Source of the DNA: Arachis hypogaea
Taxonomy: Eukaryota > Streptophyta > Magnoliopsida > Fabales > Fabaceae
Length of the DNA stretch: 64,000 nt
Assembly (NCBI RefSeq): GCF_003086295.3
Contig: NC_092042.1
Coordinates: forward strand, 42,716,137-42,780,136
Direction of reading: 5' to 3'
Shown: positions 5,104-59,237 of the stretch, one piece after another
How positions within the stretch are numbered: the first letter of the stretch is position 1
How the letters are laid out: every line of letters starts with the position of its first letter
The notes under the pieces: generated by a model
Seen by the model: only the letters and a program-made list of their open reading frames with translations
Told to the model about the DNA's origin: nothing
The model's database searches: none
Position numbers and translations under genes: made by a program

Positions 5104-5122
5104 CACCACCAAACTTAAACTG

Positions 5123-5140
5123 TTGCTTGTCCTCAAGCAA
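5123..5140 (-). promoter_or_regulatory. 3'-LTR-proximal hairpin of element D
   Basis: On the element strand the sequence is TTGCTTG-AGGA-CAAGCAA: a perfect 7-bp stem with a 4-nt loop. It lies exactly 19 nt from the LTR end (5103). The spacer contains TTTAAGTTTGGTGGTG, the presumed polypurine-tract region. The same geometry is present in A1, A2, B and both H copies. Confidence 0.7.
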
Positions 5141-7102: not shown

Positions 7103-7154
7103 GAGGATGGTAGAAATGAAGGAAAGTAGAGCGCCCCATACCAAACATAAAATT

Positions 7155-7172
7155 TTGCTCATCCCCGAGAAA
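7155..7172 (-). promoter_or_regulatory. Decayed hairpin upstream of ORF2 (element D)
   Basis: On the element strand TTTCTCG-GGGA-TGAGCAA, followed by a variant of TTAAGTTTGGTG. One stem pair is lost and one is a G-T wobble. It lies 52 nt upstream of the ORF2 start, as in A1, A2 and H. Confidence 0.45.
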
Positions 7173-10868: not shown

Positions 10869-10887
10869 ACCTCCCCACACTTAAACC

Positions 10888-10905
10888 AAGCATGTCCTCA
10901 TGCTT
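10888..10905 (-). promoter_or_regulatory. 3'-LTR-proximal hairpin of element B
   Basis: On the element strand AAGCATG-AGGA-CATGCTT: a perfect 7-bp stem and an AGGA loop, exactly 19 nt from the LTR end (10868). The stem sequence differs from the TTGCTTG/CAAGCAA stem of the other family, while pairing, loop and spacing are kept. Confidence 0.7.
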
Positions 10906-12380: not shown

Positions 12381-12419
12381 ACCTCCCCACACTTAAAAGT
12401 TTGCATTGTCCTCGGTGCA
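12381..12419 (-). promoter_or_regulatory. Second PPT-hairpin module in element B
   Basis: Repeats the layout found next to the LTR: on the element strand TGCACCG-AGGA-CAATGCA (12402-12419, partly decayed stem, same loop), then AAGTGTGGGGAGGT (about 12381-12394). B has no second ORF. In the related elements a second module lies just upstream of that ORF, so this may mark a lost gene. Confidence 0.5.
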
Positions 12420-15984: not shown

Positions 15985-17067
15985 TGATGATTGGATTTTT
16001 GACAGTTTAGAATTTTACAAATGAAATCTCGTTGCTAGTATAGTTTCTAAACCAACACTAATCCTTTCATACAAAATTTTTTTTGTCACAAGTAACAAAC
16101 CCCTAAAATTTATAAACCAAAGCATTCAAACCTCGTGTCGTTCTCCCTAGGAATTACAATAAAGTGTCTTGTTATTGATTGTGAGTTATTTTGGGGTTTT
16201 GAGATTTTAGACAAGAAATATAAATGGCAATGAAAATAAACTAACAACTAACAAAGCTCTTGGCAAGATATGAGAACTAGAAGTCCTATCCTAGTTATCC
16301 TCCTCAATTGTGATAACAAATTGTCCATTACTCCCACTTAGTTAACCTCTAACCGTGGAGGAAAGTCAAGTGGATGAATCAATTTGATTCCTCAAGTCCT
16401 AATCAACTTCTAAAGGAAAGACTAGCTTTAGAGGCATTCAAATCAATTAGCAACTTCTAATTATCAATCAACAAAGGAATTAGATAACTCAAGAGTCACT
16501 AGTTACTCTACCTAGGCCAAGAGGAACAAAACCTACACTAAAACCAAAAGAAGCATTTTATCAAACACATAAGAAGCATAGAAGGAAAGCACATGAAGTC
16601 TACAACAAGAATGAAATCTAACAATATTTATTGAAAGGAATTAACAACAACAATCAAAAGGAACACAATTATTATGATTTACCTCAAATGGAATTGAAAG
16701 AGAGTAGAAGAAACAAAAGTAGATCTACAACAAAACACAAGAACAACATAAAAGAGATTATAACAAAAGAATGGAAGAAGAATGAATGTAACAACAAAAA
16801 ATTGAGGAGTAGAAGTAGAAGAAAGAATGAATGAAAACCTAGATCTAAGAACTAAACCTAATCCTAATCCTAATTCTAGAAAGAAGTGAGAGCTTCTCTC
16901 TTTGGAAACTAACTCTAAACTAAGCGCCTGGTGCGCGCGCGCGTCCATGGGCGAGTTCAATTATTTAGCTTTTCTATGTGTTCTCCACTTTGCATGCTTT
17001 TTCTTCACTCCTTTGATCCATTCCTAGCCTTTTCAATCTGAAATCACTAACAAACACATCAAGGCAT
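15985..17067 (-). repeat. 5' LTR of element B, main part
   Basis: Aligns with 9384-10868 but lacks about 220 bp at the point where 'ctctaaactaa' is followed by 'gcgcctggtgcgcgcg' (about 16922). Interrupted after 17067 by A1. The remainder is 28565-28746. Confidence 0.85.
17063..17067. repeat. Left target-site duplication of A1 (GGCAT)
   Basis: GGCAT at 17063-17067 and 28560-28564. The uninterrupted target is seen in the other B LTR at about 10681 (AAGGCATCTAGTGG), which confirms the insertion point and the LTR ends. Confidence 0.93.
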
Positions 17068-19147: not shown

Positions 19148-22100
19148 ATGGACCTAAGTGGAATTGAACAGTCCAGAAGGACTCTGGGGTCTTATGCTAA
19201 CCCCATTACGGCTGCATATGGGAGTAGCATCTGTACACCTCCCATCAAAGCAAGCAGCTTTGAGCTAAACCCTCAACTCATTATCATAGTGCAGCAAAAT
19301 TGCCAGTATTCCGGTCTTCCACAGGAAGAGCATACTGAGTTTCTGGCACAGTTCTTACAAATTGCTGACACAGTACATGATAAAGAGGTGGATCAGGATG
19401 TCTACAGACTATTACTGTTTCCATTTGCTGTAAAAGATCAAGCTAAAAGGTGGTTGAATAACCAACCTACAGCAAGCATAAAGACATGGAAATAGTTATC
19501 AGACAAATTCCTGAATCACTTTTACCCTCCAAAGAGGATGACACAGCTAAGGCTGAACATCCAAGGCTTTAAACAAGAGGATAATGAATCCCTTTATAAT
19601 GCCTGGGAGAGGTATAGAGGTATGCTAAGAAAATGCCCCTCTGAAATATTTTCAGAGTGGGTACAGTTAGACATCTTCTACTATGGGCTTACAGAAAAAG
19701 CTCAGATGTCTTTAGACCACTCAGCTGGTGGATCTATACACATGAGGAAGACAATTGAAGAGGCTCAAGAGCTTATAGACACTGTTGCTAGAAATCAATA
19801 TTTGTACTCTAGCAATGAGTTCTCTCCAAAAGAGGAAGTCATGACAGTAGTCACTGATCCTAATCCTCAAGAACAGATGATTGAGCTTAATCAACAATTG
19901 CTCCTGATGACAGAACAGTTAGCAGAATTTAAAGAGATGCTCCATGAAACTAAAGTTGCTAACAAGAACATAGAACTGCAGTTGAATCAAGCAAAACAGC
20001 AAATATCTAAACAGATAACAGAGGAATGTCAAGCAGTTCAACTGAGGAGTGGGAAAACACTGAATAACACTGCTCAAAAGAGCAAAAAGCCAAATAAGGA
20101 ACAATTGACAGAGGATAACCAAACCACTGTGCAAAATCCCTCTGAGGACAGTAAGAGCCCAGAGAGGAACACTTTTGGCGTTCAAACGCCAAAAAAGGGG
20201 GGAAAGCTGGCGTTAAACGCCCATTCCCTGCCCAGTTCTGGCGTTCAAACGCCAGAAAACGGGGAAAAGTTGGCGTTAAACGCCCATTTTCCACCCAATC
20301 CTGGCGTTCAGACGCCAAGGGAAGATCAGACACCTGAGAGTGCTGACAGTAATCTTTCTAACAAGGCTTCTTCAACCACTTCTGTAAGGAATAAACCTGC
20401 AGCATCTAAGGTTGAAGACTATAAAGCCAAGATGCCTTATCCTCAAAAACTCCGCCAAGCGGAATAGGATAAGCAATTTGCCCGCTTTGCAGACTATCTA
20501 AGGACTCTTGAAATAAAGATTCCGTTTGCAGAGGCACTTGAGCAAATACCTTCTTATGCTAAGTTCATGAAAGAAATCTTAAGTCATAAGAAGGATTGGA
20601 GAGAAACTGAAAAAGTGTTTCTCACTGAAGAATGCAGTGCAGTCATTCTGAAAAGCTTACCAGAAAAGCTTCAAGATCCAGGAAGCTTTATGATACCATG
20701 CACATTAGAAGGTGCTTGCACCAAGACAGCCCTATGTGATCTTGGAGCAAGCATCAATCTAATACCTGCATCCACTATCAGAAAGCTTGGGTTGACTGGA
20801 GAAGTCAAACCAACCCGGATATGCCTCCAACTTGCTGATGGCTCCATTAAATATCCATCATGCATAATAGAGGATATGATTGTCAAGGTTGGGCCATTCG
20901 CCTTTCCAACTAACTTTGTGGTGCTGGAGATGGAGGAGCACAAGAGTGCAACTCTCATTCTAGGAAGACCTTTCCTAGCAACTGGACGAACTCTCATTGA
21001 TGTACAAAAAGGGGAAGTAACCCTGAGAGTCAATGAGCATGAGTTCAAGTTGAATGCTGTAAAAGCTATGCAGCATCCAGACACACCAAATGACTGCATG
21101 GGCGCTGACATTATTGACTCTCTGGTAGAAGAGATCAATATGACTGAAAGCCTAGAATCAGAGCTTGAGGACATCTTCAAAGATGCTCAACCTGATCAAG
21201 AAGAACCAGAGGAAACAAAGGAATTTTCGAAAATTCCTCAGGAGGAGGATAAGCCTCCCAAACCTGAACTCAAACCACTACCACCATCCCTGAAGTATGC
21301 ATTTCTGGGAGAGGGTGACACTTTTCCAGTGATTATAAGCTCTGCTTTAAATCCACAGGAAGAGGAAGCACTGATTCGAGTGCTAAGGACACACAAGACA
21401 GCTCTTGGGTGGTCCATAAGTGATCTTAAGGGCATTAGCCCAGCTAGATGCATGCACAAGATCCTGTTGGAGGATAATGCCAAACCAGTGGTCCAACCAC
21501 AGAGGAGGCTAAATCCAGCCATGAAGGAGGTGGTGCAGAAAGAGGTCACTAAATTACTGGAGGCTGGGATTATTTATCCTATTTCTGATAGCCCCTGGGT
21601 GAGCCCTGTCCAAGTTGTCCCCAAAAAGGGAGGCATGACAGTGGTTCATAATGAAAAAAATGAACTGGTTCCTACAAGAACAGTCACAGGGTGGCGTATG
21701 TGTATTGACTACAGAAGGCTCAATACAGCCACCAGAAAGGATCATTTTCCTTTACCATTCATAGACCAAATGCTAGAAAGACTAGCTGGTCATGATTATT
21801 ACTGCTTTTTGGATGGCTATTCAGGTTACAACCAAATTGCAGTAGATCCTCAGGACCAAGAGAAACAGCATTTACTTGCCCTTCTGGCGTGTTTGCCTAC
21901 AGGAGGATGCCTTTTGGTCTGTGTGATGCTCCTGCAACCTTTCAGAGATGCATGTTATCCATCTTCTCTGATATGGTGGAGAAATTCCTGAAAGTCTTCA
22001 TGGATGACTTCTCAGTATATGGAGACTCATTCAGCTCCTGTCTTAATCACCTAGCACTTGTCCTGAAAAGGTGCCAAGAGACTAACCTGGTTTTAAACTG

Positions 22101-24153
22101 GGAGAAATGTCACTTTATGGTGACTGAAGGAATTGTCCCTGGGCACAAAATTTCAAGCAGGGGAATAGAGGTGGATAAGGCAAAGGTAGAGGTAATTGAG
22201 AAATTACCACCACCTGCCAATGTTAAGGCAATCAGAAGCTTTCTGGGGCATGCAGGATTCTACAAAAGGTTTATAAAGGATTTTTCGAAAATTGCAAAAC
22301 CTTTGAGTAACCTGCTAGCTGCTGACACACCATTTGTGTTTGACACACAGTGTCTGCAGGCATTTGAGACCCTGAAAGCTAAGCTGGTCACAGCACCGGT
22401 CATCTCTGCACCAGATTGGACATTGCCATTTGAACTAATGTGTGATGCCAGTGACCATGCCATTGGTGCAGTGTTGGGACAGAGGCATAACAAGCTTCTG
22501 CACGTCATTTATTATGCCAGCCGTATTCTAAATGACGCACAGAAGAATTACACAACCACAGAAAAAGAGTTACTTGCAGTGGTCTATGCCATTGACAAGT
22601 TTAGATCCTATCTAGTGGGATCCAAAGTGGTTGTGTACACTGACCATGCTGCTCTTAAATACTTACTCACAAAGCAGGATTCAAAACCCAGGCTTATCAG
22701 ATGGGTGTTGCTTCTGCAAGAGTTTGATATAGAAATAAGAGACAGAAAAGGGACAGAGAACCAAGTAGCTGATCATCTGTCCCGAATAGAACCAGTAGCT
22801 GGGGCGTCCCTCCCTTCTACTGAGATATCTGAGATTTTCCCAGATGAGCAACTCTTTGCCATTCAGGAAGCTCCATGGTTTGCAGATATTGCAAACTATA
22901 AAGCTGTGAGGTTCATACCCCAGGAGTACAGCAGAGTGCAAAGAAAGAAATTAATTTCAGATGCCAAGTACTACCTATGGGATGAGCCATATCTCTTCAA
23001 GAGATGCGCAGACGGAATGATCCGCAGATGTGTACCCAGAGAAGAAGCACAAAGGATCCTATGGCACTGCCATGGATCACAGTATGGAGGTCATTTTGGA
23101 AGTGAGCGAACAGCCACTAAAGTCCTCCAATGTGGCTTCTACTGGCCTACTCTCTATAAAGATTCCCGAGAGTTTGTGTGTAACTGTGACAGTTGCCAAA
23201 GAGCTGGTAACTTGCCTCACGGATATGCCATGCCTCAACAAGGGATATTAGAGATAAAATTGTTTGATGTATGGGGAATTGACTTCATGGGGCCATTCCC
23301 ACCATCATACTCAAACACTTACATTCTGGTGGCAGTGGACTATGTATCTAAGTGGGTAGAAGCAATTGCTACACCCACTAATGATACCAAGACCGTACTG
23401 AAGTTCCTCCAGAAACACATCTTCAGCAGGTTTGGTGTTCCCAGAGTACTAATCAGTGACAGGGGCACTCATTTCTGCAATAGACAGCTATACTCCGCTA
23501 TGGTAAGATATGGAATTAGCCACAAAGTGGCAACTCCGTATCATCCACAGACAAATGGGCAAGCTGAAGTCTCTAACAGAGAGCTAAAAAGAATCCTAGA
23601 ACGGACTGTGATAGCCCGAAGAAAGGATTGGGCAAAGAGTTTGGATGATGCTCTGTGGGCATACAGAACAGCATTCAAGACTCCTATAGGAACCTCTCCA
23701 TACCAACTGGTGTATGGAAAGGCCTGTCATCTGCCCGTGGAACTGGAACATAAAGCCTACTGGGCAACCAGATTCCTAAACCTGGATGCTCAGTTAGCTG
23801 GTGAAAAAAGATTGCTCCAGCTAAATGAGCTAGAGGAGTTCAGACTCAATGCCTTTGAAAATGCAAAAATTTATAAGGAAAAGGCAAAGAAGTGGCATGA
23901 TAAGAAGTTGTCATCCAGAGTCTTTGAGCCAGGACAAAAAGTTCTGCTCTTTAACTCTAGGCTCAGATTGTTTTCAGGAAAACTTAAATCCCGATGGAGG
24001 GGTCCATATGTGATTACAGGAGTATCACCATATAGGTATGTTGAGCTTCAGGATATTGATTCTGACAAAAAGTTCATTGTTAATGGACAGAGAATCAAGC
24101 ATTATCTTGAAAGCAATTTTGAGCAGGAATGCTCAAAACTGAGACTTGAGTAA
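19148..24153 (+). pseudogene. gag-pol polyprotein of A1, interrupted
   Basis: About 1668 codons from MDLSGIEQ. Gag: the retrotransposon gag core lies around 19400-19700 (LFPFAVKDQAKRWL, ESLYNAWERYRGM). Protease: active site DLGAS at 20738. [13 protein letters not shown] near 21810 and catalytic FMDDF at 21997. RNase [15 protein letters not shown] at 22441. Integrase: HHCC zinc finger 23060-23210, then catalytic Asp 23281, Asp 23458 and Glu 23566 (35 residues between the last two), and a GPY/F-like end (RWRGPY near 23995). Breaks: TAG at 19493-19495 and 20465-20467 (both CAG-to-TAG against A2), and a 1-base loss in an A run at 21863-21865 that shifts the rest to another frame. All catalytic residues are otherwise kept. 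This is a cytoplasmic replication polyprotein with no env-like region. Confidence 0.9.
20177..20316 (+). repeat. Palindrome array inside gag coding sequence (A1)
   Basis: Five GGCGTT(N)AAACGCC palindromes start at 20177, 20209, 20240, 20272 and 20303, spaced 32, 31, 32 and 31 bp. Two steps equal 63 bp (21 codons), so the frame is kept and the units are translated alternately as GVQTP and LALNAH. Located in the hinge between gag and protease. Confidence 0.85.
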
Positions 24154-24600: not shown

Positions 24601-24931
24601 AAAGGTGGGGGGACCAAGATTTTGCTTTCCAATCAAATTTTTTTCAAACTTTCTTTTTTTTACCCATACTTTTCTACATAAACACAATTCAACCTTTCAT
24701 CATTCACTTTCAAATCTTCAAAAATCAAAATCATTCTTCAAATCTCTCTCAAATCAATCCCAAATCTTGTTCAAAAACTCACCCTTCTCTCAAATTCTCT
24801 CCATATCTTCTCAAATCTCCTTTCAATTTTTTTGAAATCTCCTTCCCCCCCTTATAAAAACACGTTCGGCCCCTTCATTCCCCCCACACCATTCGAATTT
24901 GCTCTTCTCCTCTCTCTCTTCCTTCCTTTCT

Positions 24932-24951
24932 TTTGCTTGAGGACAAGCAAA
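24932..24951 (+). promoter_or_regulatory. Hairpin upstream of ORF2 (A1)
   Basis: TTTGCTTG-AGGA-CAAGCAAA, a perfect 8-bp stem, followed by CTAAGTTTGGTGTG at 24955. Lies 54 nt upstream of the ORF2 ATG. Same module as at the 3' LTR (27001-27018). Confidence 0.65.
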
Positions 24952-25005
24952 CCTCTAAGTTTGGTGTGCTTTTCCGTGATCACTAAGCCAAGATTCATCA
25001 AGATC

Positions 25006-26118
25006 ATGGCTCCTAAGGGAAAACAAACCAATTTAAGAGGAAAGAAAGAGAATAATCCAAAGAATCTTTGGAATCAAGAGAAGTTCTTAACCAAAGAACA
25101 CGAAGACCATTATCACAAAATAATGGGTCTGAGGTCAGTGATCCCGGAAGTTAAATTTGATCTGAAAGAAGATGAATATTCGGGGATCCAAGAGCAAATT
25201 CGAAACAGAGGATGGGAAGTTCTAACCAATCCTGAAATAAAGGTTGGAAGGAATATGGTTCAGGAATTCTACTCAAATCTGTGGCTAACAGATAAGCAGA
25301 GAATGACTGGAACTGCTTACCATACTTACAGAACCATGGTCAGAGGGAAAGTTATGTACTTCCATCTGGACAAAATAAGAGAAATCTTCAAATTGCCTTA
25401 ACTGCAGGATGATCCTGAATCCTTTAATAGGAGAATGGTGAGAGCAGATAAAGGGTTGGATCAAGTTCTAGAGGACATATGCCTCCCTGGAACTAAGTGG
25501 ATAACCAATTCAAAGGGTGTCCCAAACCAACTCAAGAGGGGAGACCTCAAACCAATTGCAAGAGGTTGGCTAGACTTTATTGGGCGTTCCATACTGCCCA
25601 CTAGCAACCGTTCTGAGGTCACTATCAAGAGAGCAGTGATGATTCATTGCATTATGCTTGGAAAAGAAGTGGAGGTTCATCATGTGATTGCTTGTGAGAT
25701 CTACACAATTGCAAACAAGAATTCCACTGAAGCCAAACTGGCTTACCCAAGCTTGATCTCCTTGCTCTGTAAAGAGGCTGGGGTAAAGATGGGAGTAGAT
25801 GAATTCATACCCATTGAACATCCAATCACCAAGAAGTCAATGGAAGGACAAATGCAAGACAACTGTATCAAAAGGAGGGCGCAGGAGTCCCTCCCTGAAT
25901 TCCCTGAAATTGGCTACTGGGCCAGCCTAGAAGCATCTATCACCAAGTTGCAAGAGACTATGGAGCAACTTAAGGAAGAACAGCAGAATCAGAACTGCAT
26001 GCTCTGCAAATTGCTGAAGGAACAAGAGAAGCAGGGGCGTGAACTTCAAGAACTGAAACGCCAAAAGTTCTCCCCTCAATTTGAGGGAGCATCCACTTCT
26101 CAAAATCAAGGTTGTTGA
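25006..26118 (+). pseudogene. Second ORF of A1 (putative plant transposon protein family)
   Basis: Frame of about 370 codons starting MAPKGKQTNLRG, with one in-frame TAA at 25399-25401 (a CAA-to-TAA change next to KLP). Layout: basic N-terminus; a globular domain with HYHKIMGLRSVIPEV, NRGWEVLTNP and, after the stop, ARGWLDFIGRSILPTSNRSEVT; a C-terminal coiled coil ending EKQGRELQELKRQ. Homologous to 49463-50611 and 41129-42277. From memory the central domain is the 'putative plant transposon protein' family often found beside Athila-type elements. No transmembrane segment or signal peptide, so it is not envelope-like. Role unknown. Confidence 0.75.
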
Positions 26119-27037
26119 GTCCTAACTCTGTGAAAACCTCTATCATTAGGAGCCTATTTAAATTTTTTGTTTTCTATTTTTCTATTTTTAGTCTCATCTT
26201 ATATCTATCTTTGAGTCTTGTTCTTAATTCATAATTAATAAAATTTAAAATTCATGTCTTAAAGCTATGAATATCCTATGAATCCATCACCTCTCTTAAA
26301 TGAAAAATGCTCTAATCACAAAAGAACAAGAAGTACAGGATTTCAAAATTATCCTTGAAACTAGTTGAATTAGTTTGATGTGGTGACAATAATTTTTGTT
26401 TTTCCGAATGAATGCTTGAACAGTGCATATGTCTTTTGAATTTGCTGTTTTAAGAATGTTAAAATTGTTGGCTCTTGAAAGAATGAGGGAAAAAGAGAAC
26501 TGTTATTGAGGATCTAAAAAATTATCAAATTGATTCTTGAAGCAAGAAAAAGCAAAAAAAAAAAACGAAAAAAAAAGAGAGAAAGAAATAAAGTTGTGAT
26601 CCAAGGCAAAAAGAGTGTGCTTAAGAACCCTGGACACCTCTAATTGGGGACTCTAGCAAAGCTGGGTCACAATCTGAAAAGGTTTACCCAAGTATGTGTC
26701 TGTGGCATGTATGTATCTGGTGGTAATACTGGATGACAGAGTGCTTTGGGCCACAGCCAAGACTCATGACATAGCTATGTTCAAGAATCATTATACTTAA
26801 CTAGGAGAATCAATAACACTATCTGAGTTCTGAGTTCTTATGGATGCCAATCATTCTGAACTTCAAAGGATAGAGTGAGATGCCAAAACTGTTCGGAAGC
26901 AAAAAGCTACTAGTCCCGCTCATCTAATTGGAGCTAAGTTTCCTTGATATTTTGGAGCCTATAGTATATTCTCTTCTTTTTATCCTATTTTGATTTTCAG
27001 TTGCTTGGGGACAAGCAACAATTTAAGTTTGGTGTTG
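26119..27037 (+). other. 3' non-coding region of A1
   Basis: No gene. Contains an A-rich stretch (26550-26585), sequence shared with A2 (58316-59237) and, inverted, with H (40071-41128), then the hairpin and the PPT region just before the 3' LTR. The PPT is not a simple purine run: TTTAAGTTTGGTGTTG ends at the LTR. Confidence 0.6.
27001..27018 (+). promoter_or_regulatory. 3'-LTR-proximal hairpin of A1
   Basis: TTGCTTG-GGGA-CAAGCAA, perfect 7-bp stem, ending exactly 19 nt before the 3' LTR (27038). Confidence 0.75.
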
Positions 27038-28564: not shown

Positions 28565-28746
28565 CTAGTGGAATCAAAGGGAGATTAAAATCATCAAGTT
28601 AAAGGCCTAAAAAGCATGTTTTCACATCTAAGCACAAATAAGGAGACAATCATAAAATCATGCTAATTCATTGAATAAATATGGGTAAAAGTTGATAAAA
28701 TTCCCTAAAATCAATACAAGATAAACCCTAAATATGGGGTTTATCA
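28565..28746 (-). repeat. 5' LTR of element B, remaining part
   Basis: CTAGTGGAATCAAAGG... to GGGTTTATCA, matching 10686-10868 of the other LTR. Its end is the outer end of element B and is followed by CTCAG (28747-28751). Confidence 0.88.
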
Positions 28747-31696: not shown

Positions 31697-31725
31697 AGTT
31701 ACATTCTAAGGGCATATTTAGAACA

Positions 31726-31743
31726 TTGCTCGCCCTCGAGCAA
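31726..31743 (-). promoter_or_regulatory. ORF2-upstream hairpin of element G
   Basis: On the element strand TTGCTCG-AGGG-CGAGCAA: a perfect stem in which the sixth pair is C-G instead of the T-A seen in A1, so both sides changed together. The ORF2 it would precede is missing. Confidence 0.6.
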
Positions 31744-32513: not shown

Positions 32514-34837
32514 TCAATGTTGTGGAATCCCAACACCAAACTTAGAGTTTGAATGTGGGGGTTTAACACGAAACTTAGAGTTTGGTTGTGGCCTCCCAAT
32601 ACCAAACTTAGAGTTTGATTGTGGGGGCTTTGTTTGACTTTGTATTGAGAGAAGCTTTTCATGCTTCCTCTCCATGGTTGCAGAAGAAGGTCCTTGAGGG
32701 TTAAACACAAGGTAGTCCCCATTTAATTGAAGGACTAGCTCTCCTCTGTCAACATCAATCACAGCTACTGCTGTGGCTAGGAAGGATCTTCCAAGGATGA
32801 TGCATTCATCCTCCTCCTTCCTAGTGTCTAACATTATGAAATCAGCAGGGATGTAGAGGCCTTTAACCTTCACTAACACATCCTCTACTAATCCATAAGC
32901 TTGTCTTTGTGATCCGTCTTCCATCTCTAATGAGAATGTGGCAGGCTTTACCTCAATGATCCCCACCTTCTCCATTACAGAGAGTGGCATAAGATTTATG
33001 CCTAACCCTAGGTCACACAGAGCCTTCTCAAAGGTCATGGTGCCTATGGTATAGGGTATTAAGAATTTACCAGGATCTTGTTTCTTTTGAGCTAACGTTC
33101 GCTGAACCCATGTATCTAATTCACTAATGAGCAAGGGAGGTTCACCTTCCCAAGTCTCATTACCAAACAACTTGGCATTCAGTTTCATGATGGCTCCTAG
33201 ATATTGAGCAACTTTCTCTCCAGTTATATCTTTATCCTCTTCAGAGGAAGAATAGTCTTCAGAGCTCATGAATGGCAGAAGAAAGTTTAATAGGATCTCT
33301 ATGGTCTCTATATGACCTTCAGATTCCTTTGGGTCCTCAATAGGGAACTCCTTCTTGCTTGAGAGACGTCCCATGAGGTCTTCCTCATTGGGATTCACAT
33401 CCTCTCCTTCCCCTCTAGGTTCGGCCATGTTGATTATGTTAATGGCATTGCACTCTCTTTTTGGATTCTCTTCAGTATTGCTTGGGAGAGTACTAGGAGG
33501 AGTTTCAGTGACTTTCTTTCTCAGCTGGCCCACTTGTGCCTCCAAATTTCTGATGGACAACCTTGTTTCACTCATGAAACTTAAAAAAGTGGCCTTAGAC
33601 AGATCAGAGACTATGTTTGCTAAGTTAGAGGTGTTCTGCTCAGAATTCTCTGTCTGTTGCTGAGAAGATTATGGAAAAGGCTTGCTATTGCTGAGCCTAT
33701 TTCTTCCACCATTATTAAAGCCTTGTTGAGGCTTTTGTTGATCCTTCCATGAGAAATTTGGATGATTTCTCCATGAAGAATTATAGGTGTTTCCATAAGG
33801 TTCACCCATGTAATTTACCTCTACTATTGCAGGTTCTCAGGATCATAAGCTTCTTCTTCAGAAGATGCCCCTTTAGTACTTTTGGATGCATTTTGCCATC
33901 CATTCAGGCTTTGAGAAATCATGTTGACTTGCTGAGTCAACATTTTGTTCTGAGCCAACATGGCATTCAGAGCATCAATTTCAAGAACTCCCTTCCTCTA
34001 AGGCGTCCCATTATTCACAGAATTCCTCTCAGAAGTGTACATGAACTGGATATTTGCAACCATGTCAATGAGTTCTTGAGCTTCTGTAGGCGTTTTCTTT
34101 AGGTGAATGGATCCACCTACAGAATGGTCCAGTGACATCTTAGAGAACTCAGATAGACCATAATAGAATATATCCAAAATGGTCCATTCTGAAAGCATGT
34201 CAGAAGGACACCTTTTGGTCATTTGTTTGTATCTTTCCCAAGCTTCATAGAGGGATTCACCTTCTTTTTGTTTGAAGGTCTGAACATCCACTCTAAGCTT
34301 GCTCAACTTTTGAGGAGGAAAGAACTTAGTCAAGAAGGCCGTGACCAGCTTATCCTAGGAGTCCAGGCTATCTTTAGGTTGTGAGTCTAACCATGTTCTA
34401 GCTCTGTCTCTTACAGCAAAAGGGAAAAGCATGAGCCTGTAGACTTCAGGATCTACTCCATTAGTCTTAACAGTCTCACAGATCTGCAAGAACTCAGTTA
34501 AAAACTGATAGAAATCTTCTGATGGAAGTCCATGGAACTTGCAGTTTTGTTGCATTAGTGCAACTAGTTGAGGTTTCAACTCAAAATTGTTTGCTCTAAT
34601 GGTAGGAATTGAGATGCTTCTTCCATCAAACTTGGAAGTAGGTGTAGTATAGTCACCAAGCATCCTCCTTGCATTATTGTTGTTGGGTTCGGCTACCATA
34701 TCCTTTTCTTGTTCGAAAATTTCAGTAAGGTTGTCTCTGGATTGTTGTATTTTAGCTTCTCTCAGTTTCCTCTTCAGAGTCCTTTCAGGTTTAGGATCAG
34801 CTTCAACAAGAATGCCTTTTTCCTTGTTCCTGCTCAT
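32514..34837 (-). pseudogene. gag-protease of element G, degraded
   Basis: Minus-strand frame from MSRNKEKGILVEAD. Gag core 34000-34600 (FAVRDRARTWLDSQ; GESLYEAWERYKQM), a Gln/Ser-rich linker, and protease with ALCDLGLGINLMP near 33020. The tail contains two to three copies of NSKFGVG/NSKFRV, which are translations of TCTAAGTTTGGTGTTGG. Breaks: TAG at 34355 where relatives have Trp, TAG at 33998 where relatives have Gln, and a frame change between 33998 and 33575. No RT or integrase. The 32290-32513 stretch downstream has no gene. Confidence 0.8.
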
Positions 34838-38336: not shown

Positions 38337-38511
38337 GTGCCCAACACCAAACTTAGGTTTGATGTTAGGGAGAACTGTATGGGTTTCTACCAAGGGGAAG
38401 GCTTAAGCAATGAACTCTGTTTGTAGGTGCCTCCTTCTCTAGAGAGTGGTGAAGGTTTAAAAACCTTGAATACAAAATAGTCGTCCCAGAGCCTTAGGAC
38501 CACTTCGCCTC
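38337..38511 (-). mobile_element. Remnant of another element's internal region
   Basis: On the minus strand it reads like the end of a gag-protease ORF: DDYFVFKVF followed by CTAAGTTTGGTGTTGGGCAC directly at the LTR end. It is unlike the neighbours at base level. It may be the sequence into which G or H inserted. Too short to classify. Confidence 0.4.
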
Positions 38512-40033
38512 TTGGTGCACGAAATTGCAATCACACTTTGCAACCCCGCACAACTAACCAGCAAGTGCACTGGGTCATCCAAGTATTACCTTACGTGAGT
38601 AAGGGTCGATCCCACGGAGATTGTCGGCTTGAAGCAAGCTATGATTATCTTGTAAATCTTAGTCAGGATATCAGAAATTATCAGGATTGATTGTGAAGAG
38701 TAAAAGAACATGAAATAAGTACTTGTTTTGCAGTATTGGGGAACAGGTTGAGGTTTTGGAGATGCTCCATCTTCTGAATCTCCGCTTTCCTACTGTCTTC
38801 TTCTTCAAGCACGCAAGGCTCCTTCCATGGCAAGCTGTATGCAAGGGTTTCACCGTTGTCAGTGGCTACCTCCCATCCTCTCAGTGGAAATGTTCAACGC
38901 ACCCTGTCACGGCACGGCTATACATCTGTCGGTTCTCAATCAGGCCGGAATAGAATCCAGTGATTCTTTTGTGTCTGTCACTAATGCCCCGCCCTCAGGA
39001 GTTTGAAGCTCGTCACAGTCATTCAATCATTGAATCCTACTCAGAATACCACAGACAAGGTTTAGACCTTCCGGATTCTCTTGAATGCCGCCATCAGTTC
39101 TAGCTTATACCACGAGGATTCCGATTAAAGAATCCAAGAGATATCTACTCAATCTAAGATAGAATGGAGGTGGTTGTCAGGCACACGTTCATAGTCGAGA
39201 ATGATGATGAGTGTCACGGATCATCACATTCATCTGGGTTAAGAGCAAGTAATATCTTAGAATGGAAGCAAGCATGATTGAATGAAAAATAGTAGTAATT
39301 GCATTAATCCATCAAGACACAGCAGAGCTCCTCACCCCCAACCATGGGGTTTAGAGACTCATACTGTAAAAGGTACACAAAGAAACGTGTAAAGTGTCAT
39401 GAGGTACAGATACAATGTCAAAAGATCCTATTAATAGTGAACTAGTAATCTAGGGTATACAGAAATGAGTAAATGACGTAAAAATCCACTTCTGGGTCCA
39501 CTTAGTGTGTGCTTGGGCTGAGCATTGAAGCATTTTCGTGTAGAGACTCTTTCTGGAGTTAAACGCCAGCTTTTATGCCAGTTTGGGCGTTTAACTCCAA
39601 TTTTTATGCCAGTTCTAGCATTAAACGCTGGGAATTCTGAAGCTGATTTGCAACGCCGGTTTGGGCCATCAAATCTCGGGCAAAGTATAGACTATTATAT
39701 ATTGCTGGAACGCCCAGGATGTCTACTTTCCAACGCCGTTGAGAGCGCGCCAGTTGGGCTTCTGTAGCCCCAGAAAATCAACTTCGAGTGCAGGGAGGTC
39801 AGAATCCAACAGCATCTGCAGTCCTTTTCAGTCTCTGAATCAGATTTTTGCTCAGGACCCTCAATTTCAGCCAGAAAATACCTGAAATCACAGAAAAGCA
39901 CACAAACTCATAGTAAAGTCCAGAAAAGTGAATTTTAACTAAAAACTAATAAAAATATACCAAAAACTAACTAGATCATACTAAAAATATACTAAAAACA
40001 ATGCCAAAAAGCGTATAAATTATCCGCTCATCA
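38512..40033 (-). repeat. 3' LTR of H copy 1 (short subtype, 1522 bp)
   Basis: Same length and sequence type as the LTRs of A1, in reverse. It differs from the 5' LTR of the same copy (46701-48367, long subtype), although the LTRs of one insertion should start out identical. Confidence 0.88.
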
Positions 40034-40052
40034 CAACACCAAACTTAAATTG

Positions 40053-40070
40053 TTGCTTGTCCTCAAGCAA
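40053..40070 (-). promoter_or_regulatory. 3'-LTR-proximal hairpin, H copy 1
   Basis: On the element strand TTGCTTG-AGGA-CAAGCAA, 19 nt from the LTR end at 40033. Confidence 0.72.
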
Positions 40071-42277: not shown

Positions 42278-42332
42278 TGATGGTAATGGAAAAACAAAAA
42301 GATTATGCTTTGACCACACCAAACTTAAAATA

Positions 42333-42350
42333 TTGCTCGTCCTCAAGCAA
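42333..42350 (-). promoter_or_regulatory. ORF2-upstream hairpin, H copy 1
   Basis: On the element strand TTGCTTG-AGGA-CGAGCAA; the sixth pair is a T-G wobble. 55 nt before the ORF2 ATG, followed by TTAAGTTTGGTGTGG. Confidence 0.6.
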
Positions 42351-42829: not shown

Positions 42830-45098
42830 TCTCAACACCAAACTTAGAGTTTGGTTGTGGCCTCCCAACACCAAACTTAGAGTTTGACTGTGGGGGCTCT
42901 TTTTGACTCTGTACTGAGAGAAGCTTTTCATGCTTCCTCTCCATAGTTGCAGAGGAAGGTCCTTGAGCTTTAAACACAAGGTAGTCCCCATTCAATTGAA
43001 AGGAGTAATTCTCCTCTGGTAACATCAATCACAGCTTCTGCTGTGGCTAGGAAGGGTCTTCCAAGGATGATGCATTCATCTTCTTCCCTCCTAGTGTCTA
43101 AGATTATGAAATCACCAGGGATGTAAAGGCCTTCAACCTTTACTAAAATGTCCTCTACTAATCCATAAGCTTGTCTTACTGACTTGTCTGCCAATTGAAG
43201 TGAGAATAAGGCAGGTTGTACCTCAATAATCCCAGTTTCTCCATTACAGAGAGTGGCATAAGATTTATGCCGGGCCCCAGGTCACACAGAGCCTTGTTAA
43301 AGGTCATGGTGCCTATGGTACAGGGTATTAAGAATTTACCAGGATCTTGTCTCTTTTGAGGTAGAGTTTTCTGAATCCATGTATCTAGTTCACTAATGAG
43401 CAAGGGGGATTCACCTTCCCAAGTCTCATTCCCAAACAACTTGGCATTCAGCTTCATGATAGCTCCTAGATATTGAGCAACTTACTCTCCAGTTACATCT
43501 TCATCCTCTTCTGAGGAGTAATAGTTTTCAGAGCTCATGAATGGCAGAAGGAGATTTAGTGGAATCTCTATGGTCTCTATATGAGCCTCAGATTCCTTTA
43601 GGTCCTCAATGGGGAACTCCTTCTTGTTTGAGAGACGTCCCAAGAGGTCTTTCTCACTAGGATTTTCGTCCATCTCCTCCCTTGTGCATTCGGCCATATT
43701 GATTACTTCAATGGCCTTGCAATCTCCTTTTGGATTCTCTTCTGTATTGCTTGGGATAATACTGGGAGGAGTTTCAATGACTTTCTTACTCAGCTGGCCC
43801 ACTTGTGCCTCCAGATTTCTAATGGAGGACCTTGTTTCACTCATGAAACTTAAAGTGGCTTTTGACAGATCAGAGACTAAGTTTGCTAAATTAGAGGGGC
43901 TCTGTTCAGAACTTTCTGTCTGTTGCTGGGAAGATGATAGAAAAGGCTTGTTATTACTGAGCCTATTTCCTCCACCATTGTTAAAGCCTTGTTGAGGCTT
44001 TTGTTGATCCTTCCATGAGAAATTTGGATGATTTCTCCATGATGAGTTATAGGTGTTTCCATGAGGTTCACCCATGTAATTAACCTCTACCATTGCAGGG
44101 TTCTCAGGATCATAAGCTTCTTCAGAAGCTGCCTCTTTAGTACTGTTGGATGCATTTTGCCATCCATTCAGACTTTAAGAGATCATGTTGATTTGCTGAG
44201 TCAACACTTTGTTCTGAGCCAATATGGCATTCAGAGTATCAATTTCAAGAACTCCCTTCCTCTGAGGTGTCCCACTATTCACGGAATTCCTCTTAGAAGT
44301 GTACATGAATTGGTTATTTGCAAACATGTCAATAAGTTCTTGAGCCTCTTCAGGCGTTTTCTTTAGGTGAATAGATCCACCTGCAAAATGGTCCAATGAC
44401 ATCCTGGAAAATTCAGATAGACCATAATAGAATATATCTAATATGGTCCATTCTGAAAACATGTCAGAAGGGCACTTTTTGGTTATCTACTTGTATCTTT
44501 CCCAAGCTTCATAGAGGGATTCACCATCTTTTTGCTTGAAGGTCTGAACATCCACTCTAAGCTTGCTCAGCTTTTGAGGAGGAAAGAATTTATCCAAGAA
44601 GGTCGTGACCAGCTTATCCCAGGAGTCCAGGCTATCTTTAGGTTGTGAGTCCAACCATGTTCTAGCTCTGTCTCTTACAGCAAAAGGGAAAAGGATGAGC
44701 CTGTAGACTTCAGGATCTACTCCATTTGTCTTAACAGTCTCACAAATCTGCAAGAACTCAATTAAAAACTGGTAAGGATCTTCAGATGGAAGTCCATAAA
44801 ACTTGCAGTTCTGTTGCATTAAAGCAACTAGTTGAGGCTTAAGCTCAAAATTGTTTCCTCCAATGGCAGGAATGGAGATGCTTCTTCCATCAAATTTGGA
44901 CGTTGGTTTTGTGAAGTCACCAATTCTCCTTGCATTATTGTTGTTGGGTTCGGCTGCCATCTCCTTCTCTTGTTCGAAAATTTCAGAAAGGTTGCCTCTG
45001 GATTGTTGTGGTTTAGCTTCTCTTAGTTTCCTCTTCAGAGTCCTTTTAGGTTCTGGATCAGCTTCAACAAGAGTGTTTTTTTCCTTGTTCCTGCTCAT
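42830..45098 (-). pseudogene. gag-protease of H copy 1, degraded
   Basis: Starts MSRNKEKNTLVEAD at 45098. One frame continues to about 43230 but is broken by TAG at 44487 (Gln in ERYKQM), TAA at 44175 (Gln in MISQSL) and TAA at 43482 (Gln in EQVAQY); all three are C-to-T changes. Protease ALCDLGPGINLMP lies near 43280. A single-base shift near 43230 moves the end (43194-42970) to another frame. The tail holds NSKFGVG repeats. Domain order as in elements C and G. Confidence 0.82.
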
Positions 45099-46700: not shown

Positions 46701-48367
46701 TGGTGGACGAAATTGTGATTTGTACTCTTTGTACTTGTATGAAATTTAATTCGAGATAATAGCTCTTTACTATGTGTGGTCACAACTCTGTTCAACTAAC
46801 CAGCAAGTGTACTGGGTCGTCCAAGTAATAAACCTTACCTGAGTAAGGGTCGATCCCACAGAGATTGTTCGTATGAAGCAAGCTATGATCATCTTGTAAA
46901 TCTCAGTCAGGCTGATTTAAATAAATTATGGAATTTGGAAAATCAAATAATAGTAAATAAACATAAAATAAAGATAAAGTTACTCATGTATTTCCATGAT
47001 GGGAATTTCAGATAGGTGTATGGAGATGCTGTGCTCCTCCTGAATCTCTGCTTTCCTACTACTTCATCCAATCCTTCTTACTCCTTTCCATGGCAAGCTG
47101 TATATAGGGCATCACCATTGTCAATGGCTACATCCCATCCTCTCAGTGAAAAAGGTCCAAATGCTCTGTCACAGCACAGCTAATCATCTGTCGGTTCTCA
47201 ATCAGGTTGGAATATAATCCCTTAATTCTTTTGCGTCTGTCACTAACGCCCAGCCTTCAGGAGTTTGAAGTTCGTCACAGTCATTCAATCCCAGAATCCC
47301 ACTCGGAATATCACAGACAAGGTTTATACTTTCCGGATTCTCATGAATGCCGCCATCAATCTAGCTTATACCACGAAGATTCTGTTTAAGGAATCTAAGA
47401 GATACGCGCCCGGCCTAAGGTAGAACGGAAGTGGTTGTCAATCACGCGCGTTCATAGGTGAGAATGATGATGAGTGTCACGGATCATCACATTCATCAAG
47501 TTGAAGTGCAACGAATATCTTAGAATAGGAATAATTCAAATTGGATAGAAAATAATAGTAATTGCATTGAAACTTGAGGTACAGCAGAGCTCCACACCCT
47601 TAATCTATTGTGTGTAGAAACTCCACCGTTGAAAATACATAAGTGAAAGGTTCAGGCATGGCCGAATGGCCAGCCCCCCAAAACGTGATCAATAGTCTCC
47701 TCAGATGAAGAATAAAATAAAACTGAGACCAAAGATGTCTAATACAATAGTAAATTATCCTATTTATACTAGACTAGCTACTAGGGTTTACATGAGTAAG
47801 TAATTGATGCATAAATCCACTTCCGGGGCCCATTTGGTGTGTGTTTGGGCTGAGCTTGATCTATCCACGATCTGAGGCTTCTTTTGGAGTTGAACGCCAA
47901 GTTGTAACGGGTTTTGGGCGTTCAACTCCGGGTCGTGACGTGTTTCTGGCGTTTTACTCCAGATAGCAACATGGAACTGGCGTTGAGCGCCAGTTTGCGT
48001 CATCAATTCCCAAATAAAGTATGAACTATTATATATTTCTGGAAAGCTATGGATGTCTAGTTTCCAACGTCATTGAGAGCGCGCCATTTGGAGTTCTGTA
48101 GCTCCAGAAAATCCATTTCGAGTGCAGGGAGGTCAGATTCCAACAGCATCAGCAGTCCTTTGTCAGCCTCCTATCAGAGTTTTACTCAAGTCCCTCAATT
48201 TCAACCAGAAATTACCTGAAATCACAGAAAAATACACAAACTCGTAGTAAAGTCTAGAAATGTGAATTTAACATAAAAACTAATGAAAACATCCATAAAA
48301 GTAGCTTGAACTTACTAAAAACTACCTAAAAACAATGCCAAAAAGCGTATAAATTATCCGCTCATCA
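46701..48367 (-). repeat. Shared LTR of H (long subtype, 1667 bp)
   Basis: 5' LTR of copy 1 (PBS directly to its left) and, at the same time, 3' LTR of copy 2 (hairpin/PPT module directly to its right). Palindrome units start at 47886, 47917, 47948 and 47979, exactly 31 bp apart. Confidence 0.85.
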
Positions 48368-48386
48368 CAACACCAAACTTAAATTG

Positions 48387-48404
48387 TTGCTTGTCCCCAA
48401 GCAA
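48387..48404 (-). promoter_or_regulatory. 3'-LTR-proximal hairpin, H copy 2
   Basis: On the element strand TTGCTTG-GGGA-CAAGCAA, 19 nt from the LTR end at 48367. The loop is GGGA as in A1. Confidence 0.72.
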
Positions 48405-50611: not shown

Positions 50612-50666
50612 TGATGGTAATGGAAAAACAAAAAGATTATGCTTTGACCACACCAAACTTAAAATA

Positions 50667-50684
50667 TTGCTCGCCCTCGAGAAA
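50667..50684 (-). promoter_or_regulatory. ORF2-upstream hairpin, H copy 2
   Basis: On the element strand TTTCTCG-AGGG-CGAGCAA; one mismatch, and C-G in the sixth pair as in G. 55 nt before the ORF2 ATG. Confidence 0.55.
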
Positions 50685-51193
50685 GAGAAGAAAGAAGAGA
50701 AGAAGAAGAAGAAGAAGAAAATATGGAGGAGAGTGAGGGAAGGTGTTTCGGTCAACGTGTAGAAGAGGGGGTTTGTGTTGTGTGAAAATGAAGTAGAATG
50801 GAAGGGTATATATAGGGAGGGGAGTGGGTGTAGTTTCGGTCATTTAGGGTGGGTTTGGGTGGGAAAGATTTTTGAATTTTGAAGCTGGGTGGGGTTTATG
50901 GGGAAGAGTGGATGGATGTGAGTGGTGAAGGGGGTAATTGGAAAGAGAGGTTTGAGGTGATTGGTGAAGGGTTTTTGGGGAAGTGTGTTTATTGGAAAGA
51001 GAGAATGAATGTTGAGAAGAGGGGAGAATATGTTAGGTGGGGATCCTGTGGGGTCCAAAGATCCTGAGGTGTTAAGGAGTTACATCCCTGCACCAATTAG
51101 GCATGTAAAATGCCTTTGCACACCATTCTGGCATTGAAACGCCGAAGTGATGCACACGCTGGGCGTTCAACGCCCATGTGTAGCATGTTTTTG
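50685..51193 (-). other. Non-coding region of H copy 2 left of A2
   Basis: No gene. Purine-rich on the plus strand (GAAGAAGAAG, 50690-50720), then 'gatcctgtggggtcc' near 51042, then the first units of the palindrome array (about 51128-51175) up to the A2 insertion. Confidence 0.55.
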
Positions 51194-56400: not shown

Positions 56401-57418
56401 GACCAACCTAGTTTTAAACTGGGAAAAATGTCACTTTACGGTGACTGAAGGAATTGTCCTTGGGCATAAAATTTCAAACAAAGGAATAGAGGTGGATCAA
56501 GCTAAGGTTGAAGTAATTGAAAAATTACCACCACCTACCAATGTTAAGGCAATCAGAAGCTTTCTGGGGCATGCAGGATTCTACAGAAGGTTTATAAAGG
56601 ATTTTTCAAAAATTGCCAAACCGCTGAGTAATTTGCTAGCTGCTGACACGCCATTTATCTTTGATAAGGAGTGTCTGCAGGCGTTTGAGACCCTGAAAGC
56701 TAAGCTGGTCACAGTACCAGTCATCTCTGCACCAGACTGGACATTACCATTTGAACTAATGTGTGATGCCAGTGACCATGCCATTGGTGCAGTATTGGGA
56801 CAAAGGCATGGTAAGCTTCTGCACGTCATTTATTATGGCAGCCGTATCCTAAATGATGCACAGAAGAACTACACAACCACCGAAAAGGAGTTACTTGCAG
56901 TGGTTTATGCCATTGACAAGTTCAGATCTTATTTAGTAGGATCAAAAGTGATTGTGTACACTGACCATGCTGCTCTTAAATATCTACTCACAAAGCAGGA
57001 TTCAAAGCCCAGGCTCATAAGTTGGGTGTTGCTTCTACAAGAGTTTGATATAGAAATAAGAGACAGAAAAGGGACAGAGAATCAAGTAGCTGATCACCTG
57101 TCAAGGATAGAACCAGTAGCAGGAGCATCCCTCCTTCCTATTGAGATCTCTGAAACCTTTCCGGATGAGCAATTGTTTGCTATTCAGGAAGTTCCGTGGC
57201 TTGCAGACAGTGCAGACTATAAAAGTTCTCCTTCTGTAACCATGGAGAGGAAGCATGAAAAGCTCCTCTCAAAACAGAGTCAAACAGAGCTCCCACAGTC
57301 AAACTCTAAGTTTGGTGTTGGGAAGCCACAACCAACTTCTAAGTTTGGTGTTGAACCCCCACATTCAAACTCTAAGTTTGGTGTTGGGAGGTTCCAACAT
57401 GGCTCTGAGTATCTGTGA
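53468..57418 (+). pseudogene. gag-PR-RT-RNase H polyprotein of A2 fused to a gag-protease-type tail
   Basis: One frame of about 1317 codons from MDLSGIEQ, broken by TGA 53807-53809 (Trp), TAG 54320-54322 (Gln) and TAG 55676-55678 (Gln). No frameshift. Gag core near 53720-54050; protease DLGAS near 55058; RT with [11 protein letters not shown] (Ser replaces the Gly of A1) near 56130 and FMDDF near 56318; RNase [15 protein letters not shown] near 56763 and [11 protein letters not shown] near 56957. After SADYK (about 57223) the frame runs straight into [16 protein letters not shown] and NSKFGVG repeats, which is the protein tail of elements G and H. The HHCC finger and DDE integrase present in A1 are absent, so the element could move only with integrase supplied in trans. 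Confidence 0.9.
54497..54636 (+). repeat. Palindrome array inside gag coding sequence (A2)
   Basis: Units at 54497, 54529, 54560, 54592 and 54623: steps 32, 31, 32, 31, the same as in A1. The fourth unit starts CGCG instead of GGCG. Confidence 0.85.
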
Positions 57419-57913: not shown

Positions 57914-57933
57914 TTTGCTCAAGGACGAGCAAA
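57914..57933 (+). promoter_or_regulatory. ORF2-upstream hairpin of A2
   Basis: TTTGCTC-AAGGAC-GAGCAAA: compared with A1 the sixth pair changed from T-A to C-G on both sides and the seventh is open. Followed by CTATGTTTGGTGTGG. 54 nt before the ORF2 start. Confidence 0.6.
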
Positions 57934-57987
57934 CCTTCTATGTTTGGTGTGGTAAAAGCGTTGCTTTTTGTTTCTCCATAATCATTT

Positions 57988-58315: not shown

Positions 58316-59237
58316 GGTGGACCCGTTCTTTAATTTCCTTGTTCTTTATTTTCTATTTTTTCGAATTTTTATGCTTATGTTTATCTATGTTTGTGTCTTA
58401 TTACATGATTATCAGTATCTTAGTGTCTATGCCTTAAAGCTATGAATGTCCTATGAATCCATCACCTCTCTTAAATGAAAAGTGCTTTAATCACAAAAGA
58501 ACAAGAAGTACAGGATTTCGAATTCATCTTTGAAACTAGTTGAATTAGTTTGATGTGGTGACAATACTTTTTGTTTTCTGAATGAATGCTTGAACAGTGC
58601 ATATGTCTTTTGAATTTTTTGTTTTACAAATGTTAAAATTTTTGGCTCTTGAAAGAATGATGGAAAAGGAGAACTGTTATTGAGGATCTGAAAAATCATT
58701 AAATTGATTCTTGAAGCAAGAAAAAGCAGTGAATCAAAAAAAATAAAAAGAAAGAAAGAAAAGAAAGAGAAAAAGAAAAAGAAAGAAATAAAGTTGTGAT
58801 CCAAGGCAAAAAGAGTGTGCTTAAGAACCCTGGACACCTCTAATTGGGGACTCTAGCAAAGCTGGGTCACAATCTGAAAAGGTTCACCCAAGTATGTGTC
58901 TGTGGCATGTATGTATCTGGTGGTAATACTAGATGACAGAGTGCTTTGGGCCACAGCCAAGACTCATGACATAGCTATGTTCAAGAATCATTATACTTAA
59001 CTAGGAGAATCAATAACACTATCTGAGTTCTGAGTTCTTATAGATGCCAATCATTCTGAACTTCAAAGGATAGAGTGAGATGCCAAAACTGTTCGGAAGC
59101 AAAAAGCTACTAGTCCCGCTCATCTAATTGGAGGTAAGTTTCCTTGATATTTTGGAGTCTATAGTATATTCTCTTCTTTTTATCCTATTTTGATTTTCAG
59201 TTGCTTGGGGACAAGCAACAATTTAAGTTTGGTATTG
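58316..59237 (+). other. 3' non-coding region of A2
   Basis: No gene. Matches 26119-27037 of A1. A-rich GAAAGAAA run near 58740-58790. Confidence 0.6.
59201..59218 (+). promoter_or_regulatory. 3'-LTR-proximal hairpin of A2
   Basis: TTGCTTG-GGGA-CAAGCAA, ending 19 nt before the LTR at 59238. Confidence 0.75.

Follow-up and report, generated by a model that had tools for sequence, protein, structure and literature searches.

The env-bearing elements Athila4 and Calypso carry one extra PPT (PMC2829016, citing Wright and Voytas 2002), and an additional PPT is also described for the beet chromovirus Bongo3 (PMC3605345). In the Ty1/copia Sireviruses, several PPTs occur together with an inverted repeat that carries the terminal PPT in its loop (Bousios 2010, PMC2829016), and this repeat was proposed to guide primer formation (PMC2829016). 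Upstream of the PPT, retroviruses and Ty1 have a U-box or T-box (PMC10085805). Going by the parts of these papers available to us, an extra PPT in the Athila lineage and a different kind of inverted repeat at the Sirevirus PPT are already in print. The accessible parts of the literature on Diaspora, Retand, Athila, plant LTR classification and Tat origins mention no hairpin at the PPT. Literature searches, in which subscription journals are thinly covered, gave no description of a hairpin beside a PPT among the matches listed, and a search by sequence words gave no retrotransposon title among the matches listed, as far as their text was accessible. Here we describe, from a 64,000-nt window of the Arachis hypogaea genome (NC_092042.1, positions 42,716,137 to 42,780,136) and from related sites elsewhere in that genome, a covarying hairpin that is part of a PPT module, usually present twice per element in a very abundant Athila-like group and read by us as a probable structured PPT with a central copy.

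Paired modules and their host elements

The initial annotation of the window had reported six hairpins with perfect 7-bp stems and AGGA or GGGA loops, each exactly 19 nt from a 3' LTR. Rechecking the window sequence bore out the coordinates, stems and loops of all six 18-nt hairpins (7-bp stem perfect in 6/6; Table 1); in element sense the loop is AGGA in elements D, B and H1, and GGGA in A1, H2 and A2. The spacing of 19 nt to the LTR start likewise held for 6/6 window ends, with the starts of A1, A2, H1 and H2 all set by alignment to the LTR copy at 17068 and that of B by alignment to the copy at 28746. "Exactly" did not hold in the wider set of 58 terminal copies, where the distance is 19 nt in 29, 20 nt in 28 and 21 nt in one, the value going by family; by inspection, some of the 20-nt spacings become 19 when an eighth pair is counted. 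Perfect 7+4+7 hairpins are scarce in the window (71, of which 46 lie inside one (AT)n run). Because the A and H ends belong to a single family, the six ends are not six independent cases, and the lineages among them number three: A/H, D and B.

In element sense, the order of parts is a pyrimidine-rich tract, the hairpin, about 3 nt, a PPT of the type TTTAAGT(G/T)TGG, and the LTR beginning TGAT. A partner module, with a hairpin, about 3 nt and a PPT-like TTTAAGT(G/T)TGG, lies 1.3-2.3 kb inside each of the six window elements, always upstream of the terminal module and on the same strand (6/6, 1286-2280 nt). We ran a covariance model of the 33-position module on 264 kb, made up of the window and C1:50.0-50.2 Mb of the same genome. 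It gave 38 matches of at least 24.9 bits, the next match scoring 19.2 bits and the rest at most 18.5, many of these matches being there by construction because the model was trained partly on these sequences. In the 200-kb C1 stretch, 10 of 13 terminal modules had an internal module upstream, 1239-2282 nt away, and for the other three the model found none within 4 kb. An interior copy of the terminal PPT region, as a central PPT requires, is present in these elements (6/6 in the window, 10/13 in the C1 stretch). Furthermore, the exact 16-nt form of the internal hairpin occurs 1.1-1.7 kb upstream of 41 of 94 B-type terminal sites (the shared range of the first 100 listed places per pattern on C1), against 0.56 expected after shifting.

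The paired arrangement bears on one function that the initial annotation had suggested, namely recognition of the LTR end by integrase. The hairpin is indeed close to the LTR, but it flanks the 3' LTR on the side of the element's interior, at neither end of the cDNA, and the second copy is 1.3-2.3 kb from the LTR and has none of its own. On this anatomy we rejected the integrase-end model, which we regard as scarcely credible.

Table 1. Modules, control sites and an ORF in the 64,000-nt window (position 1 is its first letter)
Feature	Position	Strand	Hairpin and other description	LTR start or distance	Score (bits)
Element D terminal module	5108..5140	-	hairpin 5123-5140, TTGCTTG-AGGA-CAAGCAA, 3 nt, PPT-like		46.1
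Element D LTR	5104, running left		start by homology to A-type ends only, 72% identity	5104	
Element B terminal module	10874..10905	-	hairpin 10888-10905, AAGCATG-AGGA-CATGCTT	10868	
Element A1 terminal module	27001..27033	+	hairpin 27001-27018, TTGCTTG-GGGA-CAAGCAA	27038	
Element H1 terminal module	40038..40070	-	hairpin 40053-40070, TTGCTTG-AGGA-CAAGCAA	40033	
Element H2 terminal module	48372..48404	-	hairpin 48387-48404, TTGCTTG-GGGA-CAAGCAA	48367	
Element A2 terminal module	59201..59233	+	hairpin 59201-59218, TTGCTTG-GGGA-CAAGCAA	59238	
Element D internal module	7140..7172	-	decayed	2032 nt upstream of terminal module	24.9
Element B internal module	12386..12419	-	stem TGCACCG/CAATGCA, two C.A mismatches	1514 nt upstream of terminal module	
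Element A1 internal module	24933..24965	+	TTGCTTG-AGGA-CAAGCAA after pyrimidine tract	2068 nt upstream of terminal module	
Element H1 internal module	42318..42350	-	TTGCTTG-AGGA-CGAGCAA, one U.G pair	2280 nt upstream of terminal module	
Element H2 internal module	50652..50684	-	TTTCTCG-AGGG-CGAGCAA, one mismatch	2280 nt upstream of terminal module	
Element A2 internal module	57915..57948	+	found by covariance model	1286 nt upstream of terminal module	26.4
Truncated internal module	31718..31743	-	hairpin intact, TTGCTCG-AGGG-CGAGCAA; PPT lost		19.2
TTTAAGTTTGGTGTC leader sites	18714, 18801, 18873, 52844, 52913	+			
TTTAAGTTTGGTGTC leader sites	46452, 46253, 36202, 36012	-			
Element A1 3' ORF part (PF20167)	25402..26115	+	between the two modules		

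The internal module sits between pol (or protease) and a 3' ORF. An ORF matching PF20167 is found between pol and the 3' LTR in A1, D, H1 and H2, where it lies between the two modules. Pfam families in the A1 ORF 21796-24150 are RVT_1, RT_RNaseH, Integrase_H2C2 and rve, with no further RNase H family at E 0.001; the additional RNase H of Tat/Ogre/Retand was found neither in A1 (from RT to integrase) nor in A2 (RT and RNase H only). A pol without a second RNase H, as in A1, is as expected for Athila rather than Tat, and by the domain content of A1 and the 3' ORF the elements appear to be Athila-like Ty3/gypsy. We saw GGCGCCGTTGCCGGGG-like flanks, which may represent a PBS; in Calypso and Diaspora the PBS is complementary to tRNA-Asp (PMC1142308).

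Using tblastn within the window, RT-integrase matches to the A1 pol were obtained in A1 and A2 only. The H elements have matches to gag, protease and the 3' ORF, and B has a 365-aa ORF without an assigned family. These H and B copies, which have no RT match, seem to need a partner's enzyme, yet they keep both modules.

The window also has some structural peculiarities. The 5' LTR of element B seems to be interrupted by element A1, its pieces stopping at 17067 and restarting at 28559. The 3' LTR of H1 is A-type (38511-40033, minus strand), while the LTR at 46779-48367 (minus strand) seems to serve as both the 3' LTR of H2 and the 5' LTR of H1; it is only about 75% identical to the H1 3' LTR, which could reflect a recombinant or shared-LTR arrangement. 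A tandem repeat of about 33 nt with TCTAAGTTTGGTGTTG occurs at 57305-57382 (plus strand) and at 42837-42887, 32535-32618 and 61181-61267 (minus strand), in the stretch that separates protease or pol from the internal module. At the gathering threshold, Rfam gave a single match in the window, away from the hairpins: snoR71 at 44461-44564 (plus strand), with 42.8 bits against a cut-off of 40, antisense to the gag region of H1.

Across the genome (2,557,474,382 bases searched), a 26-nt A-type terminal piece comprising the loop end, 3' arm, spacer and PPT, without the 5' arm, occurs 26,354 times, and the B-type PPT with LTR start 12,788 times. Two rarer PPT forms were found 1,314 and 211 times (5 and 2 for their reversed controls), and the B-type internal PPT form 966 times (control 0). 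Two patterns fitting 27/99 and 21/99 of the modules analysed below each gave 0 stretches in IMG/VR, and the former gave 0 in bacterial and archaeal genomes.

Covariation of the stem

A search for PPT-like sites found 183, of which 16 duplicates were taken out; the 167 distinct sites were classed by the sequence after the PPT. Of the 60 terminal-class sites, 54 form at least six of the seven stem pairs, as do 34 of the 50 internal-class sites, against 0/19 mid sites and 0/38 leader or repeat sites in the same elements. These site classes and the GAGGAC anchor used below were defined after the data had been seen, and all data come from one genome. If seven sites are reassigned as mid by their upstream motif, one of 26 mid sites reaches six pairs, all of them wobble pairs except a single Watson-Crick one. 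Among the controls are copies of the PPT-like TTTAAGTTTGGTGTC, repeated two or three times in the A/H 5' leaders without an AGGA hairpin. The suggestion in the initial annotation that the hairpin may help define a PPT that is not a plain purine run gains support from such PPT-like repeats elsewhere that lack it. In B-type elements, a third PPT-like site is found about 0.8-0.9 kb short of the 3' LTR (11790 in the window, minus strand; L079:2934 and L080:9455), and it is preceded by a conserved GATTAGCTTAGG-type motif, which is not the AGGA hairpin and forms a different small hairpin in some B-type elements.

For covariation we used 99 sites (58 terminal, 41 internal) with a core at most two mismatches from GAGGAC, chosen regardless of the other stem pairs; of the 11 terminal- or internal-class sites left out, seven were those reassigned as mid and four had no such core. 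PPT patterns supplied 62 of the sites, the C1 stretch 22 and the window 9, and the remaining 6 were loci retrieved with the A-type 3' arm as part of the pattern, which biases them to an intact 3' arm. The loop is AGGA in 73/99 and GGGA in 15/99, counts that are helped by the anchor, yet 59 of the 60 terminal-class sites had such a core. Self-dimerisation through loop-loop contacts was rejected because AGGA is not self-complementary. Hairpin and PPT are separated by 2-4 nt in 99/99 modules (search range 2-5).

The 99 sites contain 55 distinct 18-mer hairpins. In these, the closing pair is G-C in 45, G-U in 5 and unpaired in 5; 87.8% of cells are paired, and 137 cells have a two-sided change. 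Such changes occur at six of the seven stem pairs with pairing mostly retained; that the stem differs between families in the window and still pairs had been noticed in the initial annotation. The covariation score was 0.780; shuffled sets gave 0.215 +/- 0.024 (0/500 shuffles reach it), and sliding gave no more than 0.197. There was no excess over shuffles by two cruder measures, namely the number of pairs with any two-sided change (6 vs 6.4) and of further pair types (17 vs 17.3). RNAalifold recovered the same seven pairs, six of them with two-sided change. In addition, rough neighbour-joining with parsimony counted, starting from a Watson-Crick pair, about 19 two-sided changes, 16 on one side only and 42 that break the pair, with 13 others.

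Could the pairing simply be an inherited palindrome, passed on by shared descent with no selection on it? The families are related, and at least one pair is broken in 41/99 copies, as decay predicts; among terminal copies, 36/58 have all seven pairs and 54/58 at least six. Two-sided change at six of seven pairs does not fit such an origin, nor does a control for relatedness, in which 17 clusters by non-stem sequence yielded 12 distinct commonest stems (the first listed being taken in ties). These stems form 77 of 84 pairs; shuffles average 47.3 and go up to 71 at most, and 0/20,000 reach the observed value. Genome counts of 16-mers differing at stem pair 6 also speak against it: the C-G form occurs 11,338 times and the G-C form 2,158 times, against 30 for one unpaired cross form, the only one counted, all in any genome context and not in the module only. 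We therefore find shared descent alone highly improbable. A fixed-palindrome DNA-binding site was rejected because the sequence is not conserved.

Among the 693 stem cells, 23 are G.U, 28 A.C and 27 other mismatches. A comparison of G.U with A.C counts as a test of RNA against DNA showed no difference (23 vs 28), and since the two are about equal, folding of the RNA and of the minus-strand DNA are both possible. The hairpin is part of the predicted minimum-energy RNA fold in 7/9 module regions, being absent from 24893-24992 and from the decayed 50625-50724. By z-score the thermodynamic stability is modest, with values of -0.68 to -1.97 in 8/9 regions and +1.05 in the decayed 50625-50724. The AGGA hairpin was not in the predicted fold of two control PPT-like regions, one of which, a mid site, folds a different hairpin. 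Thus, the evidence from stability is weak and that from covariation is strong.

In summary, the covariation score, RNAalifold, the cluster-level test, the tree count and the genome 16-mer counts make it near certain that, in the Arachis hypogaea genome, the structure is under selection. This is in line with the initial annotation, which had argued for selection on structure rather than sequence and had named a lack of covariation as the result that would speak against it; within this genome, that result did not occur (0.780 vs 0.215).

Possible functions of the module

A role of the hairpin in plus-strand priming is likely, as inferred from the sequences. We think it probable that the hairpin is a structural part of a plus-strand-priming module in Athila-like Ty3/gypsy elements, at the terminal and at a central PPT. 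The basis is the conservation of structure over sequence, the near-fixed spacing to the PPT, the paired copies, the absence from PPT-like repeats elsewhere and the retention in copies without a detectable reverse transcriptase. Since the terminal and internal sites otherwise share only the PPT-like tract, the hairpin most likely helps that tract to prime. The module would consist of a U-box, the 7-bp hairpin, whose AGGA-type loop is closed by a G-C pair, a gap of 2-4 nt and the G-rich TTTAAGT(G/T)TGG tract. The hairpin would act in cis on the single-stranded template during reverse transcription and single out, among several PPT-like tracts, the one to be cut and to serve as primer. It may be read by RT/RNase H or by a nucleic-acid-binding protein derived from Gag. 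The terminal copy would define the U3 end, 19-20 nt downstream, and the internal copy, of the same design, would be a central PPT.

As for the U-box, pyrimidines make up a fraction of 0.75, 0.92, 0.73 and 0.58 of the stretch 25-60 nt before the PPT across the four module classes, compared with 0.51 in leader and 0.53 in mid controls; in the B-type internal modules, with 0.58, the tract is weak and barely above the controls. Upstream of B-type internal modules we noticed CCC(C) (upstream of 12419 in the window, and in loci L137 and L151), CCC being found in 28/30 of them and in 10/23 mid sites. It is suggestive that this CCC(C) could pair with the G run of the PPT as an outer helix in these modules.

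A more specific version of the priming model is that a hairpin in the template RNA stalls the polymerase and thereby places RNase H over the PPT/U3 junction. In retroviral RTs, 17-18 bp separate the two active sites. The 19-20 nt from hairpin to junction are near this spacing, and a fold kept while its stem sequence is free would suit a pause. In yeast Ty3 RT, however, the two active sites are about 13 bp apart (PMC5371799), and a plain 19-nt pause ruler does not follow from that value. Moreover, a conserved AGGA loop would be superfluous for a pause and the spacing has two main values, by family, so that we consider this sub-mechanism unlikely.

Another function to consider is binding of Gag or nucleocapsid, whose zinc knuckles would hold the AGGA loop for packaging or RNA chaperoning, the PPT neighbourhood being incidental or coupling packaging to priming. 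Purine tetraloops are known zinc-knuckle ligands in retroviruses, and a mostly conserved loop on a free stem, kept in copies without an RT match, would fit such binding. Against it stands the position, since at both sites the hairpin keeps within 2-4 nt of the PPT. The sole hairpin without a PPT that the covariance model returned is the truncated module at 31718-31743, although hairpins away from a PPT would escape this model because it includes the PPT. We give a packaging hairpin only a small chance.

The internal copy might instead serve the PF20167 3' ORF, its pyrimidine tract and hairpin forming a 3' splice site or translation leader from which the terminal copy was derived. Indeed, in 7/7 A/H copies inspected, including H2 with an ORF of 382 aa, the ATG of the 3' ORF lies 73 nt after the start of the internal hairpin, and in D 70 nt after it; this near-constant distance would suit a role in gene expression too, and counts to that extent against our preferred reading. 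The pyrimidine fraction of 0.92 belongs to the A/H-type internal class, and the env-like mRNA of barley Bagy2 is reported to be spliced (PMC7264820). On the other hand, no gene follows the terminal copy, where the fold is nevertheless kept, and the fold is also kept in three B-type internal copies inspected, including that of element B, which are followed by no long ORF. A role in 3' ORF expression as the primary function therefore appears quite improbable.

Extending the priming model, one may tentatively imagine that in this lineage a structured hairpin, in RNA or minus-strand DNA and with a loop for read-out, takes the place of a purine run in specifying the plus-strand primer. Two origins would then flank the 3' region, with synthesis built to start twice, and non-autonomous derivatives would keep the mark for a partner's enzyme.

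Comparison with known plus-strand origins

The way in which RT chooses a single short RNA tract to prime the plus strand is understood only in part, and in the accessible parts of the literature examined the PPTs under study are purine runs. A very abundant group of plant elements appears to add a covarying hairpin, usually two per element. The module offers a test case, comparative and in vitro, for structure-guided primer selection; it could be used as a marker for the 3' ends of Athila-like elements, and it is a cis signal that non-autonomous copies retain.

To our knowledge, no adjacent covarying hairpin accompanies the HIV-1 central PPT or Ty1 PPT2, and the peanut internal copy lies downstream of pol, unlike either of these. 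The likeness is in having a second plus-strand origin inside the element (PMC2829016). Bongo3 resembles the peanut elements in being a plant Ty3/gypsy element with a duplicated PPT; it differs as a chromovirus whose additional PPT overlaps the gag-pol stop codon, and the part of its description available to us mentions no hairpin (PMC3605345). Athila4 and Calypso belong to the same lineage of Ty3/gypsy elements and have their second PPT downstream of pol and ahead of the 3' LTR; we compare them by the citing passage in PMC2829016 alone, from which a hairpin is absent. As in retroviruses and Ty1, a pyrimidine-rich tract is located 5' of the PPT, with the difference that here the hairpin stands between tract and PPT (PMC10085805).

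With the Sireviruses, the peanut elements share an inverted repeat precisely placed at the terminal PPT and several PPT copies (PMC2829016). Sireviruses are, however, Ty1/copia elements with AGGGGGAG as the PPT, which lies inside the loop, the right arm of the repeat being within the LTR; we did not find this layout in the modules, where both hairpin arms are upstream of the PPT. According to the part of that description available to us, the upstream PPTs of Sireviruses are without the repeat, whereas the internal copy in the peanut elements has its hairpin.
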